DNA of 45,990 nt from Chloroflexota bacterium (GTDB lineage Bacteria; Chloroflexota; Anaerolineae; UBA2200; JACIWT01): positions 1 through 45,990 of the forward strand of contig JACIWT010000017.1 of NCBI GenBank assembly GCA_014360825.1, read 5' to 3'. Shown here one piece after another: positions 2,398-31,530 of the stretch. The notes under the pieces were generated by a model. That model did no database searches, was not told the DNA's origin, and saw only the letters and a list, made by a program, of their open reading frames with translations. The position numbers and the translations under genes were made by a program. Each line of letters begins with the position of its first letter. Position 1 is the first letter of the stretch.

Positions 2398-3245
2398 TCC
2401 ACAAATCTCATGCGCTGCTCTTCACCTGGCCTGCGCCAGATCGGCCCCAGGACATCCCCGTGAACCAGATCTCGAGCCGTCACCAGGACCGTGGGCAGAG
2501 AGGGGAACTCACCCCTACCAAGCCTTCTGGCCATCCAATCCACCATCTTCTTCTCCCTTCGCTCATCCGGAGCCACAATTAGGAGCCGTGGCCGGAGCTC
2601 CATTTCCCCAACATGGTTATGATAACCTCGTACTAGGTAGTACGCTTCATAGACCTGTAGTTTCTCAGCGAAGCGCGTCATGCTCTCCGTCCCCCGATCC
2701 CACTCCAGAAAAAAGGAACCCTCCTCCGTTCCCAGAGCCCACAGACAATAGGCGTCCGGGCTCAGGACGAGACGCTTTCCACGATGCGTGAATGCATAGC
2801 GCACTTCACCTTCCCCGAGCCACACCAATGCCCTCCCTCCCCTGCTCTCAAGGCCCTCTTTTATGGCAATGTAGAAATCCACTACTTCTAGCCCATGGCA
2901 GAGGCCAGCAATGCTCTCCACCCTGCGACCTCTTGCACCCGGGCCAACAACCTTTTTACGGCCCTCATTGAAAGCCAGAAGGGCACCCCTTCCCGGCTGA
3001 TAGACGTAAGGCCCTGAACCCTGGGTCACGGGCAGCCGCAGGCGGGTCAGGTAACCCCTTTCTGTCAGGATTCTCAGGCGTCGGCAGGCGGCTTGCACCG
3101 AGGCCAGCTCACCATCTTTCCGGAAGTAGAGCCTTTGGATCTGCTCCCGAATCATCTGCCCATGCCGGACTACCGCCCGGATGATCTCCTGATCCCGGGA
3201 AGTGGGAGGCAATGTCCTGCCGGCGCCGCTTCTCCGGTTCCTCAT
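2394..3245 (-). CDS. Replication-relaxation (MobC-like) winged-helix protein
   Basis: A protein of about 283 residues resembling the Replic_Relax family found with coupling proteins on mobile elements. The N-terminal region (TSRDQEIIRAV to YLTRLRL) looks like a winged helix. The middle holds the family-like SPDAYCLW and FFLEWDRGTES stretches, followed by KLQVYEAYY, whose acidic residues recall a nuclease-like fold. In this family the protein is thought to act at the transfer origin; here that is inference. The ATG at 3245 is preferred over one at 3272 because AAGGAGG lies six bases upstream of it. This start lies 137 bp inside the upstream coupling-protein reading frame, an unusually long overlap. 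Confidence 0.8.
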   Translation of the reverse strand: MRNRRSGAGRTLPPTSRDQEIIRAVVRHGQMIREQIQRLYFRKDGELASVQAACRRLRILTERGYLTRLRLPVTQGSGPYVYQPGRGALLAFNEGRKKVVGPGARGRRVESIAGLCHGLEVVDFYIAIKEGLESRGGRALVWLGEGEVRYAFTHRGKRLVLSPDAYCLWALGTEEGSFFLEWDRGTESMTRFAEKLQVYEAYYLVRGYHNHVGEMELRPRLLIVAPDERREKKMVDWMARRLGRGEFPSLPTVLVTARDLVHGDVLGPIWRRPGEEQRMRFVD

Positions 3246-5307
3246 ATCTCCCCTCCTTCTCTCCCAACACAATCGCTTCCTCTACCACATGGCGAGGTAG
3301 AGCGTACTTCTCCCTGCTCCTCTGGACCAACATCTCCACCTGGTCCCTAGCCTGGTATCTGGAAGGCGGGGGCGGGGTGCGGGCCCAGAAGGCAGGCAAT
3401 TTGACCCCCTCCTGCATCAATTGCGCGTAGATCTCGTACCTCCCCAGAGAGCGGATCTCATCGGCGCTTAGCTCCTGGGTATTGAAGTGCCGCTCCAAGT
3501 AGACCGCCTCGTCCCGCTCGCCCATTTGGAAGCAGATGACGTTCCCCACGTTGGCAAAGATCGCCTCCCTGGTCTCTTTCGGCTTCAACTGTCCCAGACG
3601 CTGGGCAGCCAGGATGAGCCCCAGACCAAACTTCCTCACCTGGTCTGCCATCTCCCCCACCGTGCGAGAGATGAACCAGGAGCACTCGTCCATGATCAGG
3701 AAGTGTAGGGCCCTTTCCGATTCCGGCGTGTCCTCTCTGGAAAGAGCAGTCTGCCGAAAGAGCAAAGTCAGTAGCGAGCCCAGGAACTGGGCGTTGTTGA
3801 CCCCGATCCCGGCCAGGTCAAACAGGAGAATGTTGCTTTTGTCCATCACGTGGCGGATGTTGATCGCCGATTTCCTTTGCCCCACGATGTTCCTAATGAA
3901 AGGCGTTCCCAGAAAGCGCTGCAGCCGGTGCAAGGTAGGGGCCACCTTCTGCTCCCTGATCCCCTCCCGGAAAGCAGATAATTGCTCGAGGAAGCGCCTG
4001 GTCTCGGCGTTGCTCACCCTGGGCAGGATGGATTGGCGATAGAGGTCGTCGTCCAGGATCCTGGCCATGTCTACCAGGGTGCCCCCGATCTCGAGAGCCG
4101 CGTAGGCCGTGTGTCTGAGTACCATATCCAGGACCGGCCCCCAGTACTCCGTCCCATAGATGCGGCGGCAGATCTCCACCAGTTCGTCCACGACCAGGAA
4201 TTCGAAGCCCGGCCTGGCAGTCAGGAAGTTAAGGCCCACCGGGTGGGCCACATCGGCGAAGCGCACCACGATCACATCTTCGAGCCTGTGGTCAGGGAGG
4301 CTGCCCAGAAGGGAGGGCACCAGGCTGCCGTGAGGATCCATCACACTCACCCCAAAGCCCAGGGCTACCAGGTCCAGGGCAATGTTGAGCAGGAGGGTTG
4401 ACTTCCCAGTCCCGGTGGACCCGAAGAGGACCAGATGCCTCAGGAGATCCTGTGGAGCCAGACGTATTTCCTTCTCCTGCCCATTCAGCGAAACAAACCC
4501 CACCCGTACACCCTTCGTGGCCAGTCTCGTCAAGGGCGGCAGCCTCCTGGCCCCGCTGAACTCCAGGTATCGATTGCGTACTTTCTCCGGCGAGGGGATG
4601 TGATACAGTGCGGTCAGCTCGTCCAGGGTGAGAAGGGAAGGGTTCAGGCGAAGGAGAGGCCAGTGCCTCGAGCGCATGGCTCGCAGAGCACTTCCGGAGT
4701 TCACCTTGATCCTGGTGGGCCTGAGGGCATTCTCCGCCCCAAACTGGCCGAAGGCAGCGATCATGTTCCCCAAGCGGTTGCGAGCCTGGCGGGTGGTCCC
4801 AGCCCAGGCCATCAGCCGCAGGATAGCTTGGAAGCATATGCCCTCCATGCTCGGTGCCAGGGCCGGGCGCACCAGGATCTGGATCATCGCCCCATCGCCG
4901 GGTGAAAGGTCCGAGATGCTGGCCAGAACCCCGGCCATCGGATCGGCTTCGCTGTCCTTCAAGATCCTCAAAGGCCTGTCCCGGCTCATACCTAGCACCA
5001 GCTCCGCAGAGGCGAACTCCGCTGGTTCTGAGCCCGCTTCCTCGGTGGGTTGGATTTCTACATCCGGGAAGTGGGCTTTGATTTGCTCCACCGCCATTTC
5101 GCCTACAGCTGGGTAGGGCACCCAGATTTGAAACTGAATTCTACCAGACTCTCCTCTGATCTCCAGGGAGATGTGTTCCTGCAGTCCAAACAGGCGGCGG
5201 ATGATAGACTTAGGCAGTGCCTGCCAAAAGGCAGCCAGCCACCTGCTGGAGGCGGAGAGGTCATGAACGGTATTCTTCGATGGCACGATCTTCAGGATCT
5301 GGTACAT
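3109..5307 (-). CDS. VirD4/TraG-like conjugative coupling ATPase
   Basis: A 732-residue P-loop ATPase of the type IV coupling/DNA-pump class that should deliver element DNA to a transfer channel at the membrane. Walker A is GSTGTGKST (about 296-304). Walker B is FLIMDEC (about 537-542). A Gln-bearing motif, AAQRLGQL, follows near 568. The roughly 250-residue N-terminal part matches the accessory domain seen in Gram-positive and Chloroflexota coupling-type ATPases. No obvious N-terminal membrane segments are seen, so membrane attachment may come from neighbouring proteins. The last 45 residues are low in conserved character and lie over the start of the next gene, suggesting a lost stop codon. 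A promoter-like extended -10 lies about 140 bp upstream. Confidence 0.87.
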   Translation of the reverse strand: MYQILKIVPSKNTVHDLSASSRWLAAFWQALPKSIIRRLFGLQEHISLEIRGESGRIQFQIWVPYPAVGEMAVEQIKAHFPDVEIQPTEEAGSEPAEFASAELVLGMSRDRPLRILKDSEADPMAGVLASISDLSPGDGAMIQILVRPALAPSMEGICFQAILRLMAWAGTTRQARNRLGNMIAAFGQFGAENALRPTRIKVNSGSALRAMRSRHWPLLRLNPSLLTLDELTALYHIPSPEKVRNRYLEFSGARRLPPLTRLATKGVRVGFVSLNGQEKEIRLAPQDLLRHLVLFGSTGTGKSTLLLNIALDLVALGFGVSVMDPHGSLVPSLLGSLPDHRLEDVIVVRFADVAHPVGLNFLTARPGFEFLVVDELVEICRRIYGTEYWGPVLDMVLRHTAYAALEIGGTLVDMARILDDDLYRQSILPRVSNAETRRFLEQLSAFREGIREQKVAPTLHRLQRFLGTPFIRNIVGQRKSAINIRHVMDKSNILLFDLAGIGVNNAQFLGSLLTLLFRQTALSREDTPESERALHFLIMDECSWFISRTVGEMADQVRKFGLGLILAAQRLGQLKPKETREAIFANVGNVICFQMGERDEAVYLERHFNTQELSADEIRSLGRYEIYAQLMQEGVKLPAFWARTPPPPSRYQARDQVEMLVQRSREKYALPRHVVEEAIVLGEKEGRYEEPEKRRRQDIASHFPGSGDHPGGSPAWADDSGADPKALLPERW

Positions 5308-17421: not shown

Positions 17422-18363
17422 TCACAACCCCGGCCTGGCCAATCTCGAGTACTTCTCCCTGGTCTCGTCGTTCCAGCTTCCCGGGGCCAGCCCCAGTTTC
17501 TCAAATACTCGCTCGATTCTCTCCCCAGCCTTGAGTTGTCGTACCGCAAAGGTGTCTCTCAGAACCTGGCAGCTAACCTTCTTTACAATCCCAGCCCTTT
17601 GGGCGGTGTTTCGCAATAAGTAGCTCAGATTGCGCTCGCTACACTCAAAGAGGTATTCCTGCGGGCAATACTCCGCCATGTAAGCCCTAAAAGCAGCAGG
17701 GAACTCAGGGGGAAGCCTCAGTTTCCTCTGCTTGAACGCCTTTCCTTTATGTCTGATCCAAACCTCTGGACGATACTGGTTCGAAAGATCGATGTCCTTG
17801 AGCCGAATCCCCAAAAGTTCCTCTCTCTTCACTCCTGTCTCCAAAAGGAGAAGAACTAGCAGGTACGTTCGGCTGTCCTTACTCGCCTCACCAAGGAGTC
17901 TCTCGCACTCCTCATCATACAGGACATCCGGCAGGGGAGAAGTGGCCCTTTTGTAGATCAGCCTTGATGCAGGGTCCTGCGGGATCACATTGCTTTCGAC
18001 CAGCCAGCGGAAGAAGTTCTTCAGTGCGGTCACCCGGCGGTTCAGGGATTTTGGGCTGCAGGGCTTCCCGCGGCTAGATCGCAGATATGCAAGGAAGCTT
18101 TCCAGTTCAGCGGTGCCAATGCCACCGACCTTCTTGTTCGGGCCGATGAACTTCCGCAGGAGAACTACGTCTGCGAGGAAGGCTTTGACAGTGTGCCTGG
18201 AATACGAACTGGCTGCAAGGTGAGCGTGATAGGCCTGCATGGCCGCAGAGATGGAGGAGGCACTGGAAAGCGGCCTGGACGCAATTAGGGACGGAGGATA
18301 TTCTCCCGTGCCATTCTTGACCTTGAGAAGTGGTAGTTGAAAAGCCCCGCCCTTTCCCTCCAT
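17422..18363 (-). CDS. Tyrosine-recombinase-like protein with degraded active site
   Basis: A 313-residue protein with the full two-domain layout of tyrosine recombinases: a core-binding domain about 40-125 and a catalytic-like domain about 145-310. Key residues differ. TGVK (Lys179) replaces TGVR, QVLR (Gln266) replaces HxLR, GL (Leu292) replaces LGH; Arg269 and a Tyr near 305 remain. Either it is inactive and binds DNA only, or it uses a changed active site. I recall similar degenerate recombinases as common in Chloroflexota. The ATG is only six bases after a TATAAT, suggesting leaderless translation. It may mark the right part of the element. Confidence 0.8.
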   Translation of the reverse strand: MEGKGGAFQLPLLKVKNGTGEYPPSLIASRPLSSASSISAAMQAYHAHLAASSYSRHTVKAFLADVVLLRKFIGPNKKVGGIGTAELESFLAYLRSSRGKPCSPKSLNRRVTALKNFFRWLVESNVIPQDPASRLIYKRATSPLPDVLYDEECERLLGEASKDSRTYLLVLLLLETGVKREELLGIRLKDIDLSNQYRPEVWIRHKGKAFKQRKLRLPPEFPAAFRAYMAEYCPQEYLFECSERNLSYLLRNTAQRAGIVKKVSCQVLRDTFAVRQLKAGERIERVFEKLGLAPGSWNDETREKYSRLARPGL

Positions 18364-22687: not shown

Positions 22688-22903
22688 TCAAATGACCCAA
22701 GGCGCGTCGAGGCTGACTGAAACAGGAAGTCCGGTATTAACCCTGACAGCGAGCGCCCTGCGATGAGGTATCCGCTCTGGTCTGGCGAAAAAATCGTGCA
22801 GGTTCGATGCCGCATCCAAGTAGACATTCCGATCCTTAGAGCGATCTCGAACTGAGGCAACAGCTCGCTCTGCCGAGGCTATCACCTGCTCTAGTTCGTT
22901 CAT
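22688..22903 (-). pseudogene. Possible truncated HEPN-like (toxin) remnant
   Basis: 71 codons start MNELEQVIASAERAVASVRD and continue KDRNVYLDAASNLHDFFARPER. The spacing of DxxxxLDAASNLHDFFxxPER recalls small HEPN-domain proteins of nucleotidyltransferase-HEPN toxin-antitoxin pairs. After about residue 50 the likeness ends and the frame stops early, so decay is likely. GGAG lies just upstream of the ATG. No partner gene is visible. From 22904 to 23154 I see nothing coding. Confidence 0.35.
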
Positions 22904-23154
22904 TTCTCCAGAGATGCCGTCCGGGTAACTTTGGCCGCTTGATCTGCCCCCGTCTTTTCCAAAGAGCGTCGCCTAATGCCCCCTCTGCGAAACCTTAGAC
23001 TGTCGGCAATGTCTCGTGTCGATTTGATGGCATGATCCCACAGGTCGCGTCCGGCCAAGGTGTCGCTTTTCCACACGTGGGAAACAGCACTTGCGGTGAG
23101 CCCCCAGGGTGGCTTGTCCTATCGAACTCCGCAACCACTCTCTGCAAGCCTCAC

Positions 23155-23183
23155 TTGCCACGAGTCGGCTCCCGTGCTATAAT
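23155..23183 (+). promoter_or_regulatory. Strong extended -10 promoter of the sensor kinase operon
   Basis: TTGCCA (23155-23160), a 17-bp spacer and TGcTATAAT with -10 at 23178-23183. Initiation near 23190 gives a leader of about 210 nt before the kinase gene; the leader has no recognised riboswitch. Confidence 0.74.
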
Positions 23184-23401
23184 AATATACGCATTTACAA
23201 CTCAAAGGGCTTTGTCTGGCTGACGGGCAAATTCGGTTGGCATGAACAACATAGCCCGTCTTTCTCCGAGGCATGGTTTCTCTCGCTGACGAGGCATGGC
23301 CACGGCGCAGTGAACGTCATGGGTTACATATTGCTCCCTACCAGGCTCCTGAGCGGTAATCCGGGGTGGAGGGGTTGTAGCATCATAGGAGGGTCAATAT
23401 A

Positions 23402-25435
23402 GTGGAGGAGCAGGAGCGGATGAACAAACAACTGCGCGACCTCATCGAGATCATCCACTTCACCGAGAGCGTGTCCGCGAAGATACATGGTCTGTTAGAT
23501 CAGGAGCAGGTCTACCAGACGGTGAAGGACGAATTCCTCAAGTCCCAAAGGTACAGCATGAGTATTGCGCTCTTGACGGATGATCCATCCAAACTCAGGA
23601 TCGCAGAAGTGTCGTTTTCCCCCCGCAGATTGAGAACGCTAAAGGGGCTGGAGAAGATCATTGGAATCACGCTGCAAGACTACAGGATCGATCTGAACAC
23701 GTCAAGCGTCTACCGCCAAGTCGTGAGGGAGCGAAAGGTCATCTGCATCAAGAGTTCGGATGTTATAGCAGAATTTCTCCCGCGTCCACTGGCCGATCTG
23801 GTAGTGAAAGGCATGGGCCATCAAAACAAATACTCCGTCCTAGCGCCGTTGAGTCTGCATGGCGAGGTCATTGGGGTCCTCGCGATGTCTTCGACCGACC
23901 TGGCCGAGCAGTTCATTCCCTCGGTGCGAAGCCTCGCCCAGCACATCTCCAGCGCGTTGGAACTGGCGGATGAATGTGCCAGGCGCAAGCAGGCAGAGGA
24001 GGCATTGGAACGCAGTGAAAAGCGTCTTCGGGCTTTGCTCGAAAACGCTTCGGACTACACTTTTGTGCTGAGCCCGACAGGAGCGATATGCTATGCAAAC
24101 CCATCGGTTGTGCGACTGGTCGGACATTCACTAGAAGAGACAATCGGCCGGAATTGGTCTGCATTTGTTGAGCCTGAAGATCTACCAGAGACGATGCTGG
24201 CACTCGCGCAGCTACTCGAGCAGCCAGGTGGTACCATGCGCAGGCAAATCCGCATTCGACACAAAGACGGCTCGTGGCGTGTCATCGAGGCCGTAGCCAG
24301 GAACCTTCTCAACGATCCGGCGGTAGCAGGCATTCTTATCAATGCCCGCGACATCACCGAACGCAAATTGGCTGAGGAACAACTACAGAAAAGTGAAGGC
24401 TCGTTGCGAGCGCTCCTGAACGCCATCACGGAGTCAGCGGCCTTGATAGATGCGGAGGGGATCGTCCATGCGGCGAACGAATCACTGGCGAAGAGAGTGG
24501 GGACTACGGTTGACAAACTCGTGGGCTCCTGCGTCTACGACTTTTTCTCTCCGGAGCTGGCCAGATCGAGAAAGGCGCGCGTGGACGAGATCTTTCGCAC
24601 GGGCAAGCCCGCCTCATGGCAAGATATACGCTCGGGCAGGTACATCAACAACTACCTCTACCCCGTATTCGACGCGGAAGGAAAGGTGATCCAGGTCGCG
24701 GTTTTTGGCATCGATGTGACCGAGCGTAAGCAAGCGGAGGAACAACTCAACCGCGCAGAGAAAATGGCCTCCTTGGGGGTGTTGGCCACGGGTATCGCTC
24801 ACGAAGTACGCAATCCCCTGGGCATTATCTCCTCCTGCACCGAGTTGCTACTGGAGCACTCTGACGACCCCGAAGTGCGTGGCCAGTGTGTCCGCAAGAT
24901 CCAGGTTGCCGTCCGGCGGGCCTCTCACATTGTGGAGAGCGTGCTGAAGTTCGCCCGTCCAGAGGAGGCGCCAATGGGAGAACTTGAGGTTCAGTGTGTG
25001 TTGGAAGAGACTCTCGACCTCCTGGCGGAGTATATGACCTTGCAGAGAGTGAGGCTGCACAAAGAGTTCCAAGCCAACCTTCCCCCTGTCATAGGCAATC
25101 GTCACCTTTTGCAGCGGGTGTTCTCCAACCTGGTCGTCAACGCCTGCAACGCCATGCCTCAGGGTGGAACGCTGACCGTGACCACGCGCGCCTCTGGCTC
25201 GGACGGAGTCGAGATCCAGTTTGATGACACCGGTCATGGCATTCCTCCAGAACATCTGCCCAGGATCTTCGATCCGTTTTTCACTGCCGGGCCTGTGGGC
25301 CAGGGGGCTGGTCTGGGGCTCTCTATCAGCCACGGCATCATCCAGCAGCACCGCGGCGTCATCGAAGTACAGAGCGAGGTGGGCAAGGGTTCCACTTTTA
25401 TTGTGCGGCTGCCTTGCAAGAGCGTTAACAGCTGA
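23402..25435 (+). CDS. Soluble GAF-PAS-PAS sensor histidine kinase
   Basis: 677 residues without membrane spans. Domains in order: GAF (about 30-195), PAS (about 205-325), PAS (about 335-450), HisKA dimerisation (about 455-525) with phospho-acceptor His467 in GIAHEVRNPLG, and HATPase (about 560-672) with an N box (LVVNACNAM), DDTGHGIP (G1) and GAGLGLSI (G2). The protein should sense a cytoplasmic or diffusible signal and phosphorylate the regulator encoded 103 bp downstream. The GTG start is supported by AGGAGGG eight bases before it. Coiled linkers (KLAEEQLQKSE, KQAEEQLNRAE) join the PAS domains. Confidence 0.93.
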   Translation: MEEQERMNKQLRDLIEIIHFTESVSAKIHGLLDQEQVYQTVKDEFLKSQRYSMSIALLTDDPSKLRIAEVSFSPRRLRTLKGLEKIIGITLQDYRIDLNTSSVYRQVVRERKVICIKSSDVIAEFLPRPLADLVVKGMGHQNKYSVLAPLSLHGEVIGVLAMSSTDLAEQFIPSVRSLAQHISSALELADECARRKQAEEALERSEKRLRALLENASDYTFVLSPTGAICYANPSVVRLVGHSLEETIGRNWSAFVEPEDLPETMLALAQLLEQPGGTMRRQIRIRHKDGSWRVIEAVARNLLNDPAVAGILINARDITERKLAEEQLQKSEGSLRALLNAITESAALIDAEGIVHAANESLAKRVGTTVDKLVGSCVYDFFSPELARSRKARVDEIFRTGKPASWQDIRSGRYINNYLYPVFDAEGKVIQVAVFGIDVTERKQAEEQLNRAEKMASLGVLATGIAHEVRNPLGIISSCTELLLEHSDDPEVRGQCVRKIQVAVRRASHIVESVLKFARPEEAPMGELEVQCVLEETLDLLAEYMTLQRVRLHKEFQANLPPVIGNRHLLQRVFSNLVVNACNAMPQGGTLTVTTRASGSDGVEIQFDDTGHGIPPEHLPRIFDPFFTAGPVGQGAGLGLSISHGIIQQHRGVIEVQSEVGKGSTFIVRLPCKSVNS

Positions 25436-25537
25436 CAACCCAAACCGGTTGCGCGGGCCCTCGTTAGGAGTCCGCCTGCGCTGGCTTGTCCTATCACCCG
25501 CTGCCTGTTGGTTCTGAGCGGCTACAAGGAGGCCAAA

Positions 25538-26263
25538 ATGGAAGGGAGGCCCCTGCGGATTTTGGTGGTGGATGATGAGAAAGACCTGGTCTGGGCTTTG
25601 CAGTACAGCCTGAGCGACGAGGGCTACGAGGTGTTCGGTGCCTACGATGGAGTGCAAGCCCTGGCCCTGGCGCGGCGTCATCGCCCCGACCTTGTGGTCC
25701 TGGACATTACCATGCGCGGCATGGATGGCCTGGAGACTTGTCGGAGTCTGCGCCGCGATCCTGCCTTGGGAGCCGTCCCCATCCTGTTCCTCACCGTGCG
25801 CAGCGACGTCAAGGACCGGGTCACAGCGCTGAATCAAGGAGGCGACGATTACATAGTCAAACCCTTCGACCTGCGGGAGTTGAAAGCCCGCATCGGGGCT
25901 CTGCTGCGCCGGAGCCGAGGGCGCGCGGGGAACGGTCTGGGACTACAAGACCAGGGTTCACTCGTGATAGGCCCTCTCACCCTCGACCTGCACCGTCGCC
26001 AAGTCCGGGTCGGGGAAAAGATCTCACTCCTGACTCCGGTAGAGTTTGATCTTCTGCACTATCTGATGGTCCACTACGGCGAAGTGTTCTCCACTGAGCA
26101 ATTGCTGCAAGGGGTATGGAACTTCGCCCCGGGAGCGGGTGGTCATAGCGTGGTGCGTTGGCACATCAAGAATCTGCGCCGCAAGATCGAGCCCGATCCT
26201 GCCCACCCAGTGTATATCCGCACCGTGGCGCGCCACGGCTACATGCTGCTATGTGAGGAATGA
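25538..26263 (+). CDS. OmpR/PhoB-family response regulator
   Basis: About 241 residues from ATG 25538, chosen because AAGGAGG lies five bases upstream. The receiver has the acidic pair (VVDDEKD), the phospho-acceptor Asp in VVLDITM, Thr in LFLTVRS and Lys in YIVKPFD, so it should be active. The C-terminal winged helix is of the OmpR type (LTPVEFDLLHYLM, then VVRWHIKNLRRKIEPD, then VARHGYML). It is almost certainly the partner of the kinase upstream and would bind DNA when phosphorylated. Confidence 0.93.
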   Translation: MEGRPLRILVVDDEKDLVWALQYSLSDEGYEVFGAYDGVQALALARRHRPDLVVLDITMRGMDGLETCRSLRRDPALGAVPILFLTVRSDVKDRVTALNQGGDDYIVKPFDLRELKARIGALLRRSRGRAGNGLGLQDQGSLVIGPLTLDLHRRQVRVGEKISLLTPVEFDLLHYLMVHYGEVFSTEQLLQGVWNFAPGAGGHSVVRWHIKNLRRKIEPDPAHPVYIRTVARHGYMLLCEE

Positions 26264-26389
26264 AACGTGATGAGGAATAGTGGTGCGGGTTGCCTCAGAA
26301 AGATCCTTCTTTCGCTCCTCTACCCCCATTCTAACGCAAAACTCGCGCAAAACCAACGCCCAGCCTGCCCTTCCGAGTACTTAGGTAAC

Positions 26390-26418
26390 TGGACTTTTCG
26401 GGGGGGGGGTGATATAAT
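26390..26418 (+). promoter_or_regulatory. Promoter with a ten-G tract in its spacer
   Basis: TGGACT (26390-26395, 4 of 6 to consensus), a 17-bp spacer and TGaTATAAT with -10 at 26413-26418. The spacer contains ten consecutive G residues (26400-26409). Slippage there would change the -35 to -10 distance. Initiation near 26425 precedes the LuxR-type gene by about 158 nt. Confidence 0.62.
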
Positions 26419-26458
26419 GGTATTGCTTGGCATAATGTTCATAAAGATATTCTGAAAC

Positions 26459-26562
26459 AAACGTACGTTTACAAGTGCAGACGTTTCATGACTTGACAGC
26501 CTACTTATAGTGTTGCGATGAGGTCGTATGTGCGTTGATGCGCACATGACGTGATCAATCAC
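26459..26562. repeat. Three palindromic sites in the leader of the LuxR-type gene
   Basis: AAACGTACGTTT (26459-26470) is a perfect 12-bp palindrome. ATGTGCG (26528-26534) and CGCACAT (26541-26547) form a hairpin. GTGAT-CA-ATCAC (26551-26562) is a third symmetric site just before the ribosome site. They could be binding sites for dimeric regulators, possibly the encoded protein. Confidence 0.6.
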
Positions 26563-26582
26563 ACTTCGAGGGAGAGAGCAAC

Positions 26583-27266
26583 GTGGGTCGCCGTCCACGA
26601 GCCGGTCAGACTATCAAAGTCCTGTTGGCCGACGATCAGGCGCTTGCCAGAGAGCTCCTGAAGCCCTTGCTGCATCAACACGGCGTCGAGATCATTGACC
26701 AGGCATTCAGCTGTCGGGAACTGGTGCAGAAGTCCCAGGAATTATTGCCCCATATCATCCTCTTAAACGCTTCCATGCCCGGCACAGAGGCCGACGAGGT
26801 GTGCCAATCCATCCTCACTCAGGAGCCGGAGGCCAAAGTTCTCGCCTACTTCCATCCCAAGGAGTGGCGATGGCTTGTATCGGCTGATGGGACAGAGATA
26901 GCCGTAAGTATTAGCACAGCGGAGGAATTGATACGCACCATTCGCGCCATGGCCAGGGGGCGATTCGTCGCCCGTTCAGTTGGTCCGAGAATGGCATTTC
27001 AGGCTGTCCCGTCCGCAGATGCTGGAAGAACGGCTGAACTCAATGACACACAAGTGAATATCCTCGAGTTGCTCGCGAAAGGACTCAGCAACCGGCAGAT
27101 TGCCGAAGAACTAGGATTGCAAGTACAGACCATCAAGAACAATTTGGGCACTATCTTTCGCGAACTTGGCGTGACCAACCGCACCGCGGCGGTAATGATG
27201 GCGCTGGGGCTGGGTTTCATTTCCCTGGAGCCGTTAGAGAATGAGCCTGAATTGCCTAATTCGTAA
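26583..27266 (+). CDS. LuxR/NarL-type regulator with degenerate receiver
   Basis: 227 residues. The N-terminal receiver-like domain (about 10-122) keeps the acidic pair (LLADDQ) but has Asn in place of the phospho-acceptor Asp (ILLNASMPG), lacks the Ser/Thr (VLAYFHP) and lacks the conserved Lys (IAVSIST). It is therefore a pseudo-receiver, probably controlled by partner or ligand binding, or by its level. The C-terminal LuxR HTH is intact (LNDTQVNILELLAKGLSNRQ, then VQTIKNNLGTIFRELGV). The GTG start has GGGAGAG upstream. It sits behind a promoter with a G10 tract. Confidence 0.88.
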   Translation: MGRRPRAGQTIKVLLADDQALARELLKPLLHQHGVEIIDQAFSCRELVQKSQELLPHIILLNASMPGTEADEVCQSILTQEPEAKVLAYFHPKEWRWLVSADGTEIAVSISTAEELIRTIRAMARGRFVARSVGPRMAFQAVPSADAGRTAELNDTQVNILELLAKGLSNRQIAEELGLQVQTIKNNLGTIFRELGVTNRTAAVMMALGLGFISLEPLENEPELPNS

Positions 27267-27527
27267 GGTTTCGTCCGGAGAGGCAACGACTTGCACGACG
27301 TGGGCCTCGTCTAACTTTTCCATCGGAAGGCGGTTGGTGGCGCGCGTAAACGTGGAGTAGAGATCATGGGGCGAGTGGCAGAGCGCGGGCCGGTCTCGCA
27401 GGATTGCAATGCGGCCTGGCACTTAGACTGACGGGTGCCGGCTACGGCGACCACAATGTTTGAGAGAACAGTGGAACACTTTGGGCATCAGACGATGCAG
27501 ACCTGCCCCGACTGAGGGAAGAGGGAT

Positions 27528-27749
27528 ATGGGCATCGAAACCAGTGGGAAAACCGCAGTGCAAGCAACGGAGGCGCTTTCGTTGCCACTGGACCGCCCGC
27601 TGAAGTTCCTTTCGATTCGCCACATACACGCCATTGACGACGCCTTGGCGGCGATTGGTGCTTACGGAGAAGTCAGGCTGATCAAGAACCGGGGCAAACT
27701 CCGCTTTATTCAGACAGTCGAGAGTCAGGACTTCTCAGCCAACGAGTGA
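27528..27749 (+). CDS. Small conserved-looking protein (73 aa)
   Basis: Residues 25-65 (LKFLSIRHIHAIDDALAAIG, then YGEVRLIKNRGKLRFIQ) form a tidy alpha-beta pattern that looks constrained, and I recall similar short proteins in Chloroflexota without known function. The first 20 residues may be dispensable. GAGGG lies close upstream of the ATG. It follows the LuxR-type gene in the same direction after a 260-bp gap without recognisable content. Confidence 0.6.
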   Translation: MGIETSGKTAVQATEALSLPLDRPLKFLSIRHIHAIDDALAAIGAYGEVRLIKNRGKLRFIQTVESQDFSANE

Positions 27750-27921
27750 CTAGAACCTGCCATTTCTCAAGGCGGAGCCAGGCACTGGGCACAAGTCAAC
27801 TGAGTCAGGCGGCTTTGACAGAGGTGAGAAATACCCGGAGGCCGACTTTGCATGCCCCAGACCACGTGTGTGTTAGCCTTCCTGATGATTGTCCGAGATC
27901 CAGAGCAGGAGAGCTACGACG

Positions 27922-30300
27922 ATGTTAATGCGAACCAGAGAGCAGAAAACGGCTTGCCCGAGCGGTTCGTCTTGGATATTACTTGCGACCCTGTCTCTGC
28001 TGGCCAGTATGATCATTCTGGCCGCGGCTATGGCATCTGCAGGATACACTGAATATTCGGAAAGCAGCACGCCCCCGGGTACCCTGGTCATGACGTTCCA
28101 ACAAGGGCTTAACGGTTATTCAGGCGCAGAAGATTCATGGATTAGTGCCGCTCATCCAACAAGCAACTATAGCGATGCAATGGATGTTTCTGTTGGTGAT
28201 TCCTTTAGGCGCGCAGCCCTGTTTCGCTTCGATCTATCGCCCCTTGGGCCCGACTCAATCGTGATATCAGCGACCTTGCGCTTATACGCTGTCGCATGGG
28301 GTGGGCAGAACATGGTCCTATCGGCACACTACATATCGCGCACTGTTGTTTATCATGAGGTAACCTGGGAGCAGGCGAGTGCCAGTGAACCATGGGGCAC
28401 GCCGGGGTGTGAGGATGTTTTCTCTGATCGCAGGGCGGATGCAGAGGATTCCGTAACGACTTTGGGTATATACACCTGGTGTGAGTTTGACCTGACCAGC
28501 CTTGTGCAAGGGTGGGTAGATGGCACCCTTGCCAACCAAGGTATCCTCATACGTCAGCAAGAGCCGGGATCCACCTTTTACTTCGCAAGCTCCGAGAACA
28601 ACGACATGTCAATTCGACCTCAACTAGTTATCATGTACGAAGACCCAGCCGACGGTAGTGAACCCTCACCGAGCCCAACGGCGACTGCCACGGCCACAGA
28701 GACTCCCACATCCACACTATCTCCTACTGCCACGCCCACTGTCACGCAGACCGCGACGAGTACTGCGACGCCAACGCCCAGTGCTGGGATCTGGCGTCGG
28801 CCGCTGCACTTGCGGTTTGGATGGGATATAGCGCTTGGGTATGGGGGTTTTGATCGATATGATATACGAGTCCTGAACTCAGGGTGGTATTCAGATTGGA
28901 CATACAGGAAACATCCAGTGCTTCTCCCCGGCTTGCTCTATATGCAACTTATTCGACCTTCGAACCCCCCACCGTGGGACTATCTCGAGGAGGTGATTGC
29001 CGCCAATCCGGGCGCTGTGTGGATTCTAGGCAATGAACCGGACTGCAAAATGCAAGACAATATGCTCCCCGATCAATACGCCCAATTCCACCACGATTAC
29101 TATCACTTCATCAAGAGCCGGGATCCAACGGCATGGGTAGCCAACGGTCCCATAGTTCAGGCTACGCCGCTACGCATGCAATGGCTGGATCTGGTGTGGG
29201 CCGCGTATCTAAACCGATATGGCGAACCCATGCCCGTAGACGTGTGGGCGATACATGAGCAGATCACACGGGAGAAAACCGGGGATTGGGGCTGCGATGT
29301 GCCCCCAGGGATAAACGTTTCTCAGGGAGAACTCTACACTCTCCAGGATACTGTTAGCGTGCCAATATTCAAGCAGCACATCCAACGAATGCGTACCTGG
29401 ATGCGTGACAAGGGTCAGCGCGATAAGCCGCTTATCATAACCGAATTTGGATCGCTTCAGCCGTCCATGTACCTCAGAAACGGCGACCAAGATGTCCTTG
29501 ATTTCATGAAGGGTTGTTTTGATTACTTGGTGAGTGCCGCCGATTCCGCAATCGGCTACCCGCAAGATGACAATCACTTGGTCCAGGCCTGGCTCTGGTT
29601 CAGTTTGAATCACCAGATGCAGCACGAATGGGGAGTAGATTACTACAATGGAAGCCTCTTCGACAGCCGGAGTCAGAGTTTTCCCGGCCTCTTGACCAAG
29701 TTTGGCGTGTTTTTCTCTGAGTACACTGGGGCCTTGATCACTCCAACGCCCACTGCCACGCCAGTGTATAGAACGGTCACCGTGTCCATCCCCTTGCGCC
29801 GCGGCTGGAACCTCGTATCCCTGCCGGTACGGGGCACAAGCACCGCAGTAGCGGATGTGTTATCTTCTATTGCGGGTCGTTATCAGGTTGTGTACACGTA
29901 TGATGGCTGTACCAAAACCTGGTTCTATTATGACCCCTCTTTTCCTTCTTCCAACACCTTGACAGACCTCCCAGAAGGAACGGCCTTCTGGATCAAGATG
30001 ACTGCGGATGCCACACTGCAGTTGACTGGCGAGGCGGGTCACCACGAGGCGCGCAGCCTGTGCCGGGGATGGAACCTAATTGGCTATTCGCGTGTCACAC
30101 CGTTGCCCATTGCGGCCGCTCTTGAATCCATGTCCGGCCGCTATCGGAGCTTGTACCTGTACGACCCAGAAAGCCCTCGGCAGTGGAGGGCCTTCGACGT
30201 GCTCGTGTATCCCGGCTTCAACGACTTGGCGGAGATGGCGCCGGGGCAGGCGTTTTGGCTATGGAGCGAGCATCCATCGGTATTGAGATTCCCTGACTAG
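27922..30300 (+). CDS. Secreted multidomain glycoside-hydrolase-like protein
   Basis: About 792 residues from ATG 27922 (AGGAG upstream). A signal peptide (ILLATLSLLASMIILAAAMA) is followed by a DNRLRE-type beta-sandwich (about 45-235), a Thr/Pro-rich linker, and a TIM-barrel-like domain (about 290-590). That domain has WILGNEPD and LIITEFGS, the placing expected for the acid/base and nucleophile Glu of clan A glycosidases. Two copies of a GWNLVSLP/GWNLIGYS beta domain end the protein (about 610-790). It probably degrades or remodels polysaccharide outside the cell. The exact GH family and substrate cannot be told from sequence alone. Confidence 0.82.
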   Translation: MLMRTREQKTACPSGSSWILLATLSLLASMIILAAAMASAGYTEYSESSTPPGTLVMTFQQGLNGYSGAEDSWISAAHPTSNYSDAMDVSVGDSFRRAALFRFDLSPLGPDSIVISATLRLYAVAWGGQNMVLSAHYISRTVVYHEVTWEQASASEPWGTPGCEDVFSDRRADAEDSVTTLGIYTWCEFDLTSLVQGWVDGTLANQGILIRQQEPGSTFYFASSENNDMSIRPQLVIMYEDPADGSEPSPSPTATATATETPTSTLSPTATPTVTQTATSTATPTPSAGIWRRPLHLRFGWDIALGYGGFDRYDIRVLNSGWYSDWTYRKHPVLLPGLLYMQLIRPSNPPPWDYLEEVIAANPGAVWILGNEPDCKMQDNMLPDQYAQFHHDYYHFIKSRDPTAWVANGPIVQATPLRMQWLDLVWAAYLNRYGEPMPVDVWAIHEQITREKTGDWGCDVPPGINVSQGELYTLQDTVSVPIFKQHIQRMRTWMRDKGQRDKPLIITEFGSLQPSMYLRNGDQDVLDFMKGCFDYLVSAADSAIGYPQDDNHLVQAWLWFSLNHQMQHEWGVDYYNGSLFDSRSQSFPGLLTKFGVFFSEYTGALITPTPTATPVYRTVTVSIPLRRGWNLVSLPVRGTSTAVADVLSSIAGRYQVVYTYDGCTKTWFYYDPSFPSSNTLTDLPEGTAFWIKMTADATLQLTGEAGHHEARSLCRGWNLIGYSRVTPLPIAAALESMSGRYRSLYLYDPESPRQWRAFDVLVYPGFNDLAEMAPGQAFWLWSEHPSVLRFPD

Positions 30301-30426
30301 CACCTATGTCGCACTGTTCTTGAACAATAAGAAGGTTTCTGAATAGTGGCGGATCTTCCATGGGACTGGACAGGGGCCAAGGGTTACCTGCGAGTATCAA
30401 GCGGTTCCCACGAGCAGAGGATCAGC

Positions 30427-31530
30427 ATGAAAAACCAAGATCGGACAAGCACCAGGCGGTGGCTAACGATCGCGTCGATGACAATGCTCATAGTGTTATG
30501 GCTCTCGCTAGACTTACAGCAGCGAGCATGGGCGCTCCCTGGCCAATCGGGATCGCGCCAGACCGTTCCAAGCCCCACACGCAGACCCACAGAAGTCCCT
30601 ACACAGACCGGGACCCCCGCTATCACGCCAACGCTGCCGGCTGGATGGGTGCTGCTGTGTAGAGACGACTTCGCAAACCCGAACAGCGGTTGGCCTATTG
30701 TTCTGGCTGCGGAATACGAGATGTACTACGGCTTGGGAGAATACCGAATCAATGTCATGGCAGCCAATGTATATGCTACAGCCACGGTTAATTGTTCCGG
30801 TTCAGATTTGGATGCTAGTATCACTGCAAGACTAGTTACCGGCGACGGTGGCGCTTATGGGATTGCCTTCCATGCCGAAGACACGCACAATTGTATGCTC
30901 TTTATGGTTTCGCCCTCACAACAGCAATACGCCCTAATAGGACTGAGCGGAGGTGTAGGAAACCCCATAGTGACCTGGACCAACCATCCTGCGATAAGGC
31001 CGGGCAATACCCCGAACCTGCTCCGCGTCATCTGCCGAGGAAGCCAGATTGAATTATACATCAATAATATCCGCGTGAGAACGGCAACGAATGCCACACC
31101 CGGGGCGGGGCGCGTGGGACTCGTGGCAAGCAATGTGGGCTTTTCCGGCGAAGTGCATGCTGCCTTTGACAATTTTGAGTTGTTCGGGCCCCAACCGGCA
31201 ACCGCCACTCCTACTGTGACGCAGACTCTGCCGCCAACCGCTACTTCCACCGCCGAGCCCACCGCGACCATTACGTTGATGCCTACGCCTACACCCAGTG
31301 TCACGGCGACCGCCACGACAACGTCATCGCCTCCGATCTATCTGCTACACTTGCCCATCACAGTGAAGAGCTGGAGAGAAGGAGCGCTGCAAAACACGAC
31401 GCCAGGGGCACGGCCGGCAAGCAAATCCCTGCCCACAGGTAAGCATAGATTCGTGGTTTTCCTCGAATCGGCAGACGCCACTGATTACGGCGTCACCCGA
31501 GCCGGAGGCGGCTGGTATAGGGACTGGTGA
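30427..31530 (+). CDS. Secreted jelly-roll (LamG/DUF1080-like) protein
   Basis: About 367 residues from ATG 30427 (AGAGG six bases upstream). A signal peptide region (LTIASMTMLIVLWLSLDL) precedes a short Pro/Thr linker, a concanavalin-like jelly-roll (about 75-260; DDFANPNSGWP, YGIAFHAED, LYINNIRVRT, AAFDNFELFG), and a second long Thr/Pro linker. The tail has IYLLHLPITVKSW, a strand-like segment also seen at the C-terminus of the next gene's product (LRLPIILKEH). It probably binds carbohydrate; no catalytic residues are evident. Confidence 0.75.
   Translation: MKNQDRTSTRRWLTIASMTMLIVLWLSLDLQQRAWALPGQSGSRQTVPSPTRRPTEVPTQTGTPAITPTLPAGWVLLCRDDFANPNSGWPIVLAAEYEMYYGLGEYRINVMAANVYATATVNCSGSDLDASITARLVTGDGGAYGIAFHAEDTHNCMLFMVSPSQQQYALIGLSGGVGNPIVTWTNHPAIRPGNTPNLLRVICRGSQIELYINNIRVRTATNATPGAGRVGLVASNVGFSGEVHAAFDNFELFGPQPATATPTVTQTLPPTATSTAEPTATITLMPTPTPSVTATATTTSSPPIYLLHLPITVKSWREGALQNTTPGARPASKSLPTGKHRFVVFLESADATDYGVTRAGGGWYRDW

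Follow-up and report, generated by a model that had tools for sequence, protein, structure and literature searches.

A G10 tract in the promoter spacer of a LuxR-type regulator gene of an uncultured Chloroflexota bacterium: a candidate length-tunable promoter

Introduction

Phase variation by homopolymers in promoter spacers is best known from host-adapted bacteria. In porA of Neisseria meningitidis, a G tract lies between the -35 and -10 elements (van der Ende et al. 1995, as cited in PMC5320596), and transcription drops once the spacing departs from its optimum of 17 nt (PMC7864442). The tp0126 gene of Treponema pallidum has a poly-G tract between its -35 and -10 elements, and its transcription is best at 17-nt spacing (PMC7864442). 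The promoter spacer of fetA (frpB) of Neisseria holds a homopolymer as well, and expression is graded by the length of this tract (PMC5320596). Upstream of espR, a regulator gene of Mycobacterium tuberculosis, indels in a G homopolymer alter the regulon (PMC11898584). For the Chloroflexi, a search of 5.39 million open papers gave no description of phase variation that is apparent from title and abstract.

Here we describe a G10 tract in the promoter spacer of a regulator gene from this phylum. The window, i.e., the whole stretch of 45,990 nt that was analysed, is contig 17 of a 2.89-Mb MAG of 64 contigs and 98% completeness. The 16S gene of this genome holds exact targets of the Chloroflexi probes GNSB941 and CFX1223, which assigns it to the Chloroflexota.

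Anatomy of the promoter

According to an earlier note on this DNA, a G tract separates a -35 element from an extended -10 element at 17-bp spacing, ahead of a LuxR-type regulator gene. These claims stand. Read directly, positions 26390-26418 are tggact-ttttc-G10-tga-tataat, the spacer counts 17 nt, and the gene behind the promoter, which starts 164 nt further on, has a GerE domain (Table 1). The spacer thus contains a homopolymer of about eight or more, and the anatomy is that of the known promoter-spacer phase-variable loci. In a mechanical promoter scan of positions 22900-31000, the site scored 10/12 with 17-nt spacing and a TG before the -10, and ranked second-best among the promoter-like sites; this region held six such sites where 4.3 were expected, so that the scan carries little weight by itself. 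A second extended -10-like site, with its hexamer (26431-26436) 18 nt downstream of the first -10, is by its match to the consensus a possible tract-independent promoter.

Upstream of the promoter, the two direct copies of CGCAAAAC occupy 26335-26342 and 26346-26353. Their 11-bp period resembles that of OmpR/PhoB-type sites, and the repeats are possibly a site for an OmpR-type regulator. We propose that the OmpR-type regulator encoded next door may act on the LuxR gene. Within the leader, the perfect palindrome AAACGTACGTTT, which was not seen in the relative described below, is possibly an operator, and the purine-rich stretch GAGGGAGAGAG is the likely ribosome-binding site. An Rfam search of the locus found no family.

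Table 1. Features of the regulator locus, in coordinates of the window.
Feature	Position	Strand	Basis
PAS/GAF sensor histidine kinase	23402..25435	+	Pfam
OmpR-type response regulator (receiver + Trans_reg_C), proposed activator	25508..26263	+	Pfam
Two direct copies of CGCAAAAC, 11-bp period, possible OmpR-type regulator site	26335..26353	+	sequence
-35 element TGGACT, 4/6	26390..26395	+	sequence and consensus scan
Promoter spacer, 17 nt, holding G10	26396..26412	+	sequence
G10 tract	26400..26409	+	sequence, run search
Extended -10 element TGA-TATAAT	26410..26418	+	sequence, consensus scan, genome motif excess
Second extended -10-like site TGG-CATAAT	26428..26436	+	consensus match only
Perfect 12-bp palindrome AAACGTACGTTT in leader	26459..26470	.	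function inferred
Inverted repeat ATGTGCG-6-CGCACAT, shortly upstream of start codon	26528..26547	+	sequence
Purine-rich stretch GAGGGAGAGAG, predicted ribosome-binding site	26568..26578	+	sequence
LuxR-type (GerE) regulator, 227 aa, GTG start	26583..27266	+	Pfam

Conservation of the promoter

The relative compared, G003, is related at the level of the order; a scan of genome contigs for siblings gave two weak, distant matches only. The promoter at 26390-26418 is credible as a genuine one, because the extended -10 motif is in excess in the genome and because the gene order recurs in G003, with a promoter-like segment in the corresponding position. Across the genome, TGNTATAAT was counted 109 times and the reversed pattern 28 times, a ratio of about 4:1. 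In G003, a PAS/GAF kinase, a response regulator and a LuxR-type regulator follow each other as they do in the window, and the two LuxR-type regulators are 43% identical. Over 45 bp that run from AGTACTT to slightly beyond the -10, the promoter segment matches G003 in a gap-free alignment; 22 of the 35 non-tract positions are identical (equally good in 6 of 3000 shuffles), and the spacing in the aligned G003 segment equals that of the window. This alignment supports conservation of the promoter at the same total length. The two intergenic regions also have the 15-mer AACGCAAAACTCGCG in common (26333-26347 in the window), where 2000 shuffles gave no match longer than 13, and the first CGCAAAAC copy falls within the common part.

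The tract might be explained in another way, as a fixed part of an activator-dependent promoter, where the OmpR-type regulator binds the upstream repeats of 11-bp period and the G-rich spacer sets the distance or the DNA shape rather than being a switch. The period of the CGCAAAAC repeats, the 15-mer conserved in G003, the weak -35 and the OmpR-type regulator gene next door are in agreement with this explanation. Yet, the repeats lie 43 bp from the aligned promoter segment in the window and about 206 bp from it in G003, and the G003 promoter has no G tract. We regard an activator-dependent promoter with a fixed tract as improbable.

The tract was absent not only from the orthologous promoter in G003 but also from the promoter (TGTTATAAT) of a 46% paralogue on C35, and hence was not retained in either of these related promoters. 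Because both are without it, the G10 tract is, as far as this comparison reaches, lineage-specific. Known phase-variable tracts are often lineage-specific, and retention is a supportive rather than a defining property.

The regulator and its neighbours

The GerE domain of the regulator (PF00196, E 3e-13 in Pfam) is C-terminal, while the receiver domain gave a weak match (E 2e-8 in Pfam). The expected phospho-acceptor position is Asn, so that we class the protein as an atypical LuxR-type regulator rather than a standard response regulator. The acceptor Asp was absent from all three regulators aligned, from the window and two relatives, which have N, R and N at this position. Since phosphorylation becomes improbable as a switch with these residues, the LuxR-type regulator is probably not controlled in this way, and its amount would then be the main control.

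The three proteins make up a small subfamily of LuxR-type regulators in which the receiver is degenerate and a W-x-W motif is conserved; two members belong to this genome (26583-27266 of the window, L061 1472-2221) and one to G003 (L062 3563-4309). The response regulator gene beside the G003 member (L062 2174-2920) has an apparent frameshift between its receiver and DNA-binding domain, which appears to be either a real mutation or an assembly error. The left part of the window encodes two tyrosine integrases (337-1305 and 17422-18363) and a TrwB/HerA-like ATPase (3109-5307), a combination that suggests an integrated mobile element beside the locus.

The earlier note also raised the prospect that surface genes downstream are switched together with the regulator. 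The first large ORF beyond the regulator (27889-30300) has a CBM96-like domain and begins 622 nt past the regulator's stop; farther downstream follow a Wzz/GNVR protein and large proteins with subtilase, CARDB and FG-GAP domains. Control of these surface genes by the LuxR-type regulator is possible but unsupported.

Long G/C runs in the genome

The whole 2.89-Mb genome contains only six G/C runs of at least 8, with lengths of 8, 10, 10, 11, 11 and 14. With independent bases, about 164 runs of at least 8 and 13 runs of at least 10 would be expected, so a G10 as such is not above chance. Five of the six runs, however, measure at least 10, and the chance of at least this is ~2e-5 under geometric decay. 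Hence, G/C runs are scarce and the survivors are long. Of the six, the tract at 26400-26409 alone lies inside a promoter spacer; by eye, the other five comprise one upstream of a TadE-like gene, one in each of two coding regions, one that ends a contig, and a G8. What is notable about the G10 is the run-length distribution to which it belongs and its placement in a good promoter. Loss of mismatch repair was rejected as a source of instability, since MutL is encoded in the genome and no general mutator state is indicated.

Two of the other runs deserve a description of their own. A G11 (L056 3001-3011, G000 C2) occupies a short gap ahead of an apparent TadE-type pilus gene, and is possibly a second length-dependent control site in this genome. 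A G14 (L057 3001-3014, G000 C11) lies within a coding region that is RuBisCO-like by eye (motif VHGHP), where it encodes four glycines in frame; slippage by a single base would disrupt the coding region.

Homopolymers are error-prone, and one other contig of the genome terminates exactly in a G11 run. The length of the tract might accordingly be an assembly or sequencing error of the MAG, with a true spacer of another length. Against such an error, the spacing falls on the optimum of 17, the same as in the aligned G003 segment, and the coding tracts G14 and C10 are both in frame by our own reading. An erroneous tract length is very improbable.

G-rich promoter spacers across the class

A G8 followed after 0-8 nt by TATAAT was found in 28 of 298 genomes of the class and the reversed pattern in 5, while the C8 version occurred in 19 class genomes. 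Class-wide enrichment of G runs in promoter spacers was nevertheless rejected: we claim none because the -10 motif outnumbers its own reverse about 4:1 in the window's own genome, and 28 vs 5 matches this general excess. In the class, G-run spacers occur no more often than expected from the frequency of promoters. G tracts reached a length of at least 10 in 15/28 sites and C tracts in 2/19 (p about 0.005).

Spacing gave a different picture. Promoters of the form TTGACA...TATAAT with a G tract had spacings of 13, 16, 16, 16, 17, 17, 18, 19, 19, 20, 20, 20 and 25 nt, the 13 being counted by hand. Only 6 of these 13 perfect promoters with at least G8 fell at 16-18, vs 116 of 129 perfect TTGACA...TATAAT pairs sampled from four genomes of the class (p about 4e-4), where the wide spacings may include chance pairs in both sets. 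In four species of one Chloroflexota genus, one orthologous promoter could be followed; its spacings were 25, 19, 15 and 16, the last two counted by eye. Its versions read TTGACA-25 (G14), TTGGCA-19 (GGAGGGGGG), TTGACA-15 (G7) and TTGACA-16 (GCGGGGGG), at the loci L079 (G083), L146 (G229), L145 (G198) and L147 (G160). For phase variation, this four-species promoter makes a stronger candidate than the site in the window.

As judged from these orthologues, the length of G-rich spacers differs from species to species in the class, which is the footprint expected of slippage, and the drift spans lengths that are expected to alter promoter strength.

Tracts of G10 to G15 also stand directly before TATAAT at L083 (G233), L088 (G246), L087 (G183), L073 (G068) and L071 (G104), most of them behind a perfect TTGACA at spacings of 13 to 20. 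The promoters in G246 and G183 have 64 bp at 80% in common, but were rejected as orthologues, as the genes behind them differ.

A serious rival to a length-tunable promoter is neutral drift. The locus would then be an ordinary promoter with a neutral homopolymer, which may drift in length over evolutionary time but forms no selected switch and has little effect, as recognition would depend mainly on the extended -10. The absence of the tract from the orthologous and paralogous promoters agrees with neutrality, and so do the frequency of G8 near TATAAT, which promoter frequency alone explains, and the number of runs of at least 10, which is smaller than with independent bases. Conversely, neutrality does not sit well with the scarcity of short G runs while long ones persist, with a spacing of exactly 17 that equals the aligned G003 segment, or with G-tract promoter spacings in the class that are far more scattered than usual. 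On balance, a neutral homopolymer has an appreciable, though less than even, chance of being the right explanation.

Predicted effects of tract length

Our preferred reading, which we hold with moderate confidence, is that a sigma-70-type promoter of the LuxR-type regulator has a slippage-prone G10 spacer that makes it length-tunable, with mostly graded variation. G10 gives the optimal 17-nt spacing, so the consensus genome would show the active setting. G9 and G11 would yield spacings of 16 and 18 nt, which are still acceptable and should change promoter strength modestly, and G8 and G12 would weaken the promoter by shifting the spacing to 15 and 19 nt. A check of the sequence at the G8 and G12 lengths found no better -35 brought into register. 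Slippage of the tract would thus produce heritable, reversible and mostly graded variation in the level of the regulator. This porA/tp0126-like promoter is more likely to act as a rheostat than as an on/off switch, because the extended -10 and the second -10 would buffer the effects of spacing.

The suggestion in the earlier note that the tract causes phase variation is borne out in part. The anatomy agrees with it, and so does the length drift that G-rich spacers display from one species of the class to another, whereas on/off switching gives way to graded control as the likelier mode. We infer slippage in the population, its effect on transcription and any benefit; membership of the G10 locus in the phase-variable class, which is defined by within-species variation, is unproven.

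A wider interpretation is that free-living Chloroflexota use poly-G or poly-C promoter spacers as contingency loci, which here would vary a regulator that has a two-component system as its neighbour and secreted and polysaccharide-related genes downstream. We consider this unlikely, but if it were true, one slippage event could reset a regulon in a bacterium without a known host. The scattered G-tract spacings of the class and the four-species promoter provide candidates at which stochastic gene expression can be tested directly in a phylum that is abundant in the environment.

Comparison with known systems

The window resembles porA in its G tract within the spacer and in its present spacing of 17 nt, the porA optimum. 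However, the product of porA is a surface porin, its bacterium is adapted to a host and variation among strains is documented, whereas the tract described here precedes a regulator gene of an uncultured member of the Chloroflexota and is followed by an extended -10. The poly-G promoter spacer is likewise shared with tp0126, but that gene encodes an OmpW homologue, and both the length variation and its effect on a reporter have been measured there. In fetA, the homopolymer also occupies the promoter spacer; it differs in being poly-C, in serving an outer-membrane receptor and in having lengths of 10-14 among strains. With espR, the window shares a G homopolymer ahead of a regulator gene, although the espR tract, a 7G, belongs to the 5' UTR and affects translation rather than promoter spacing.
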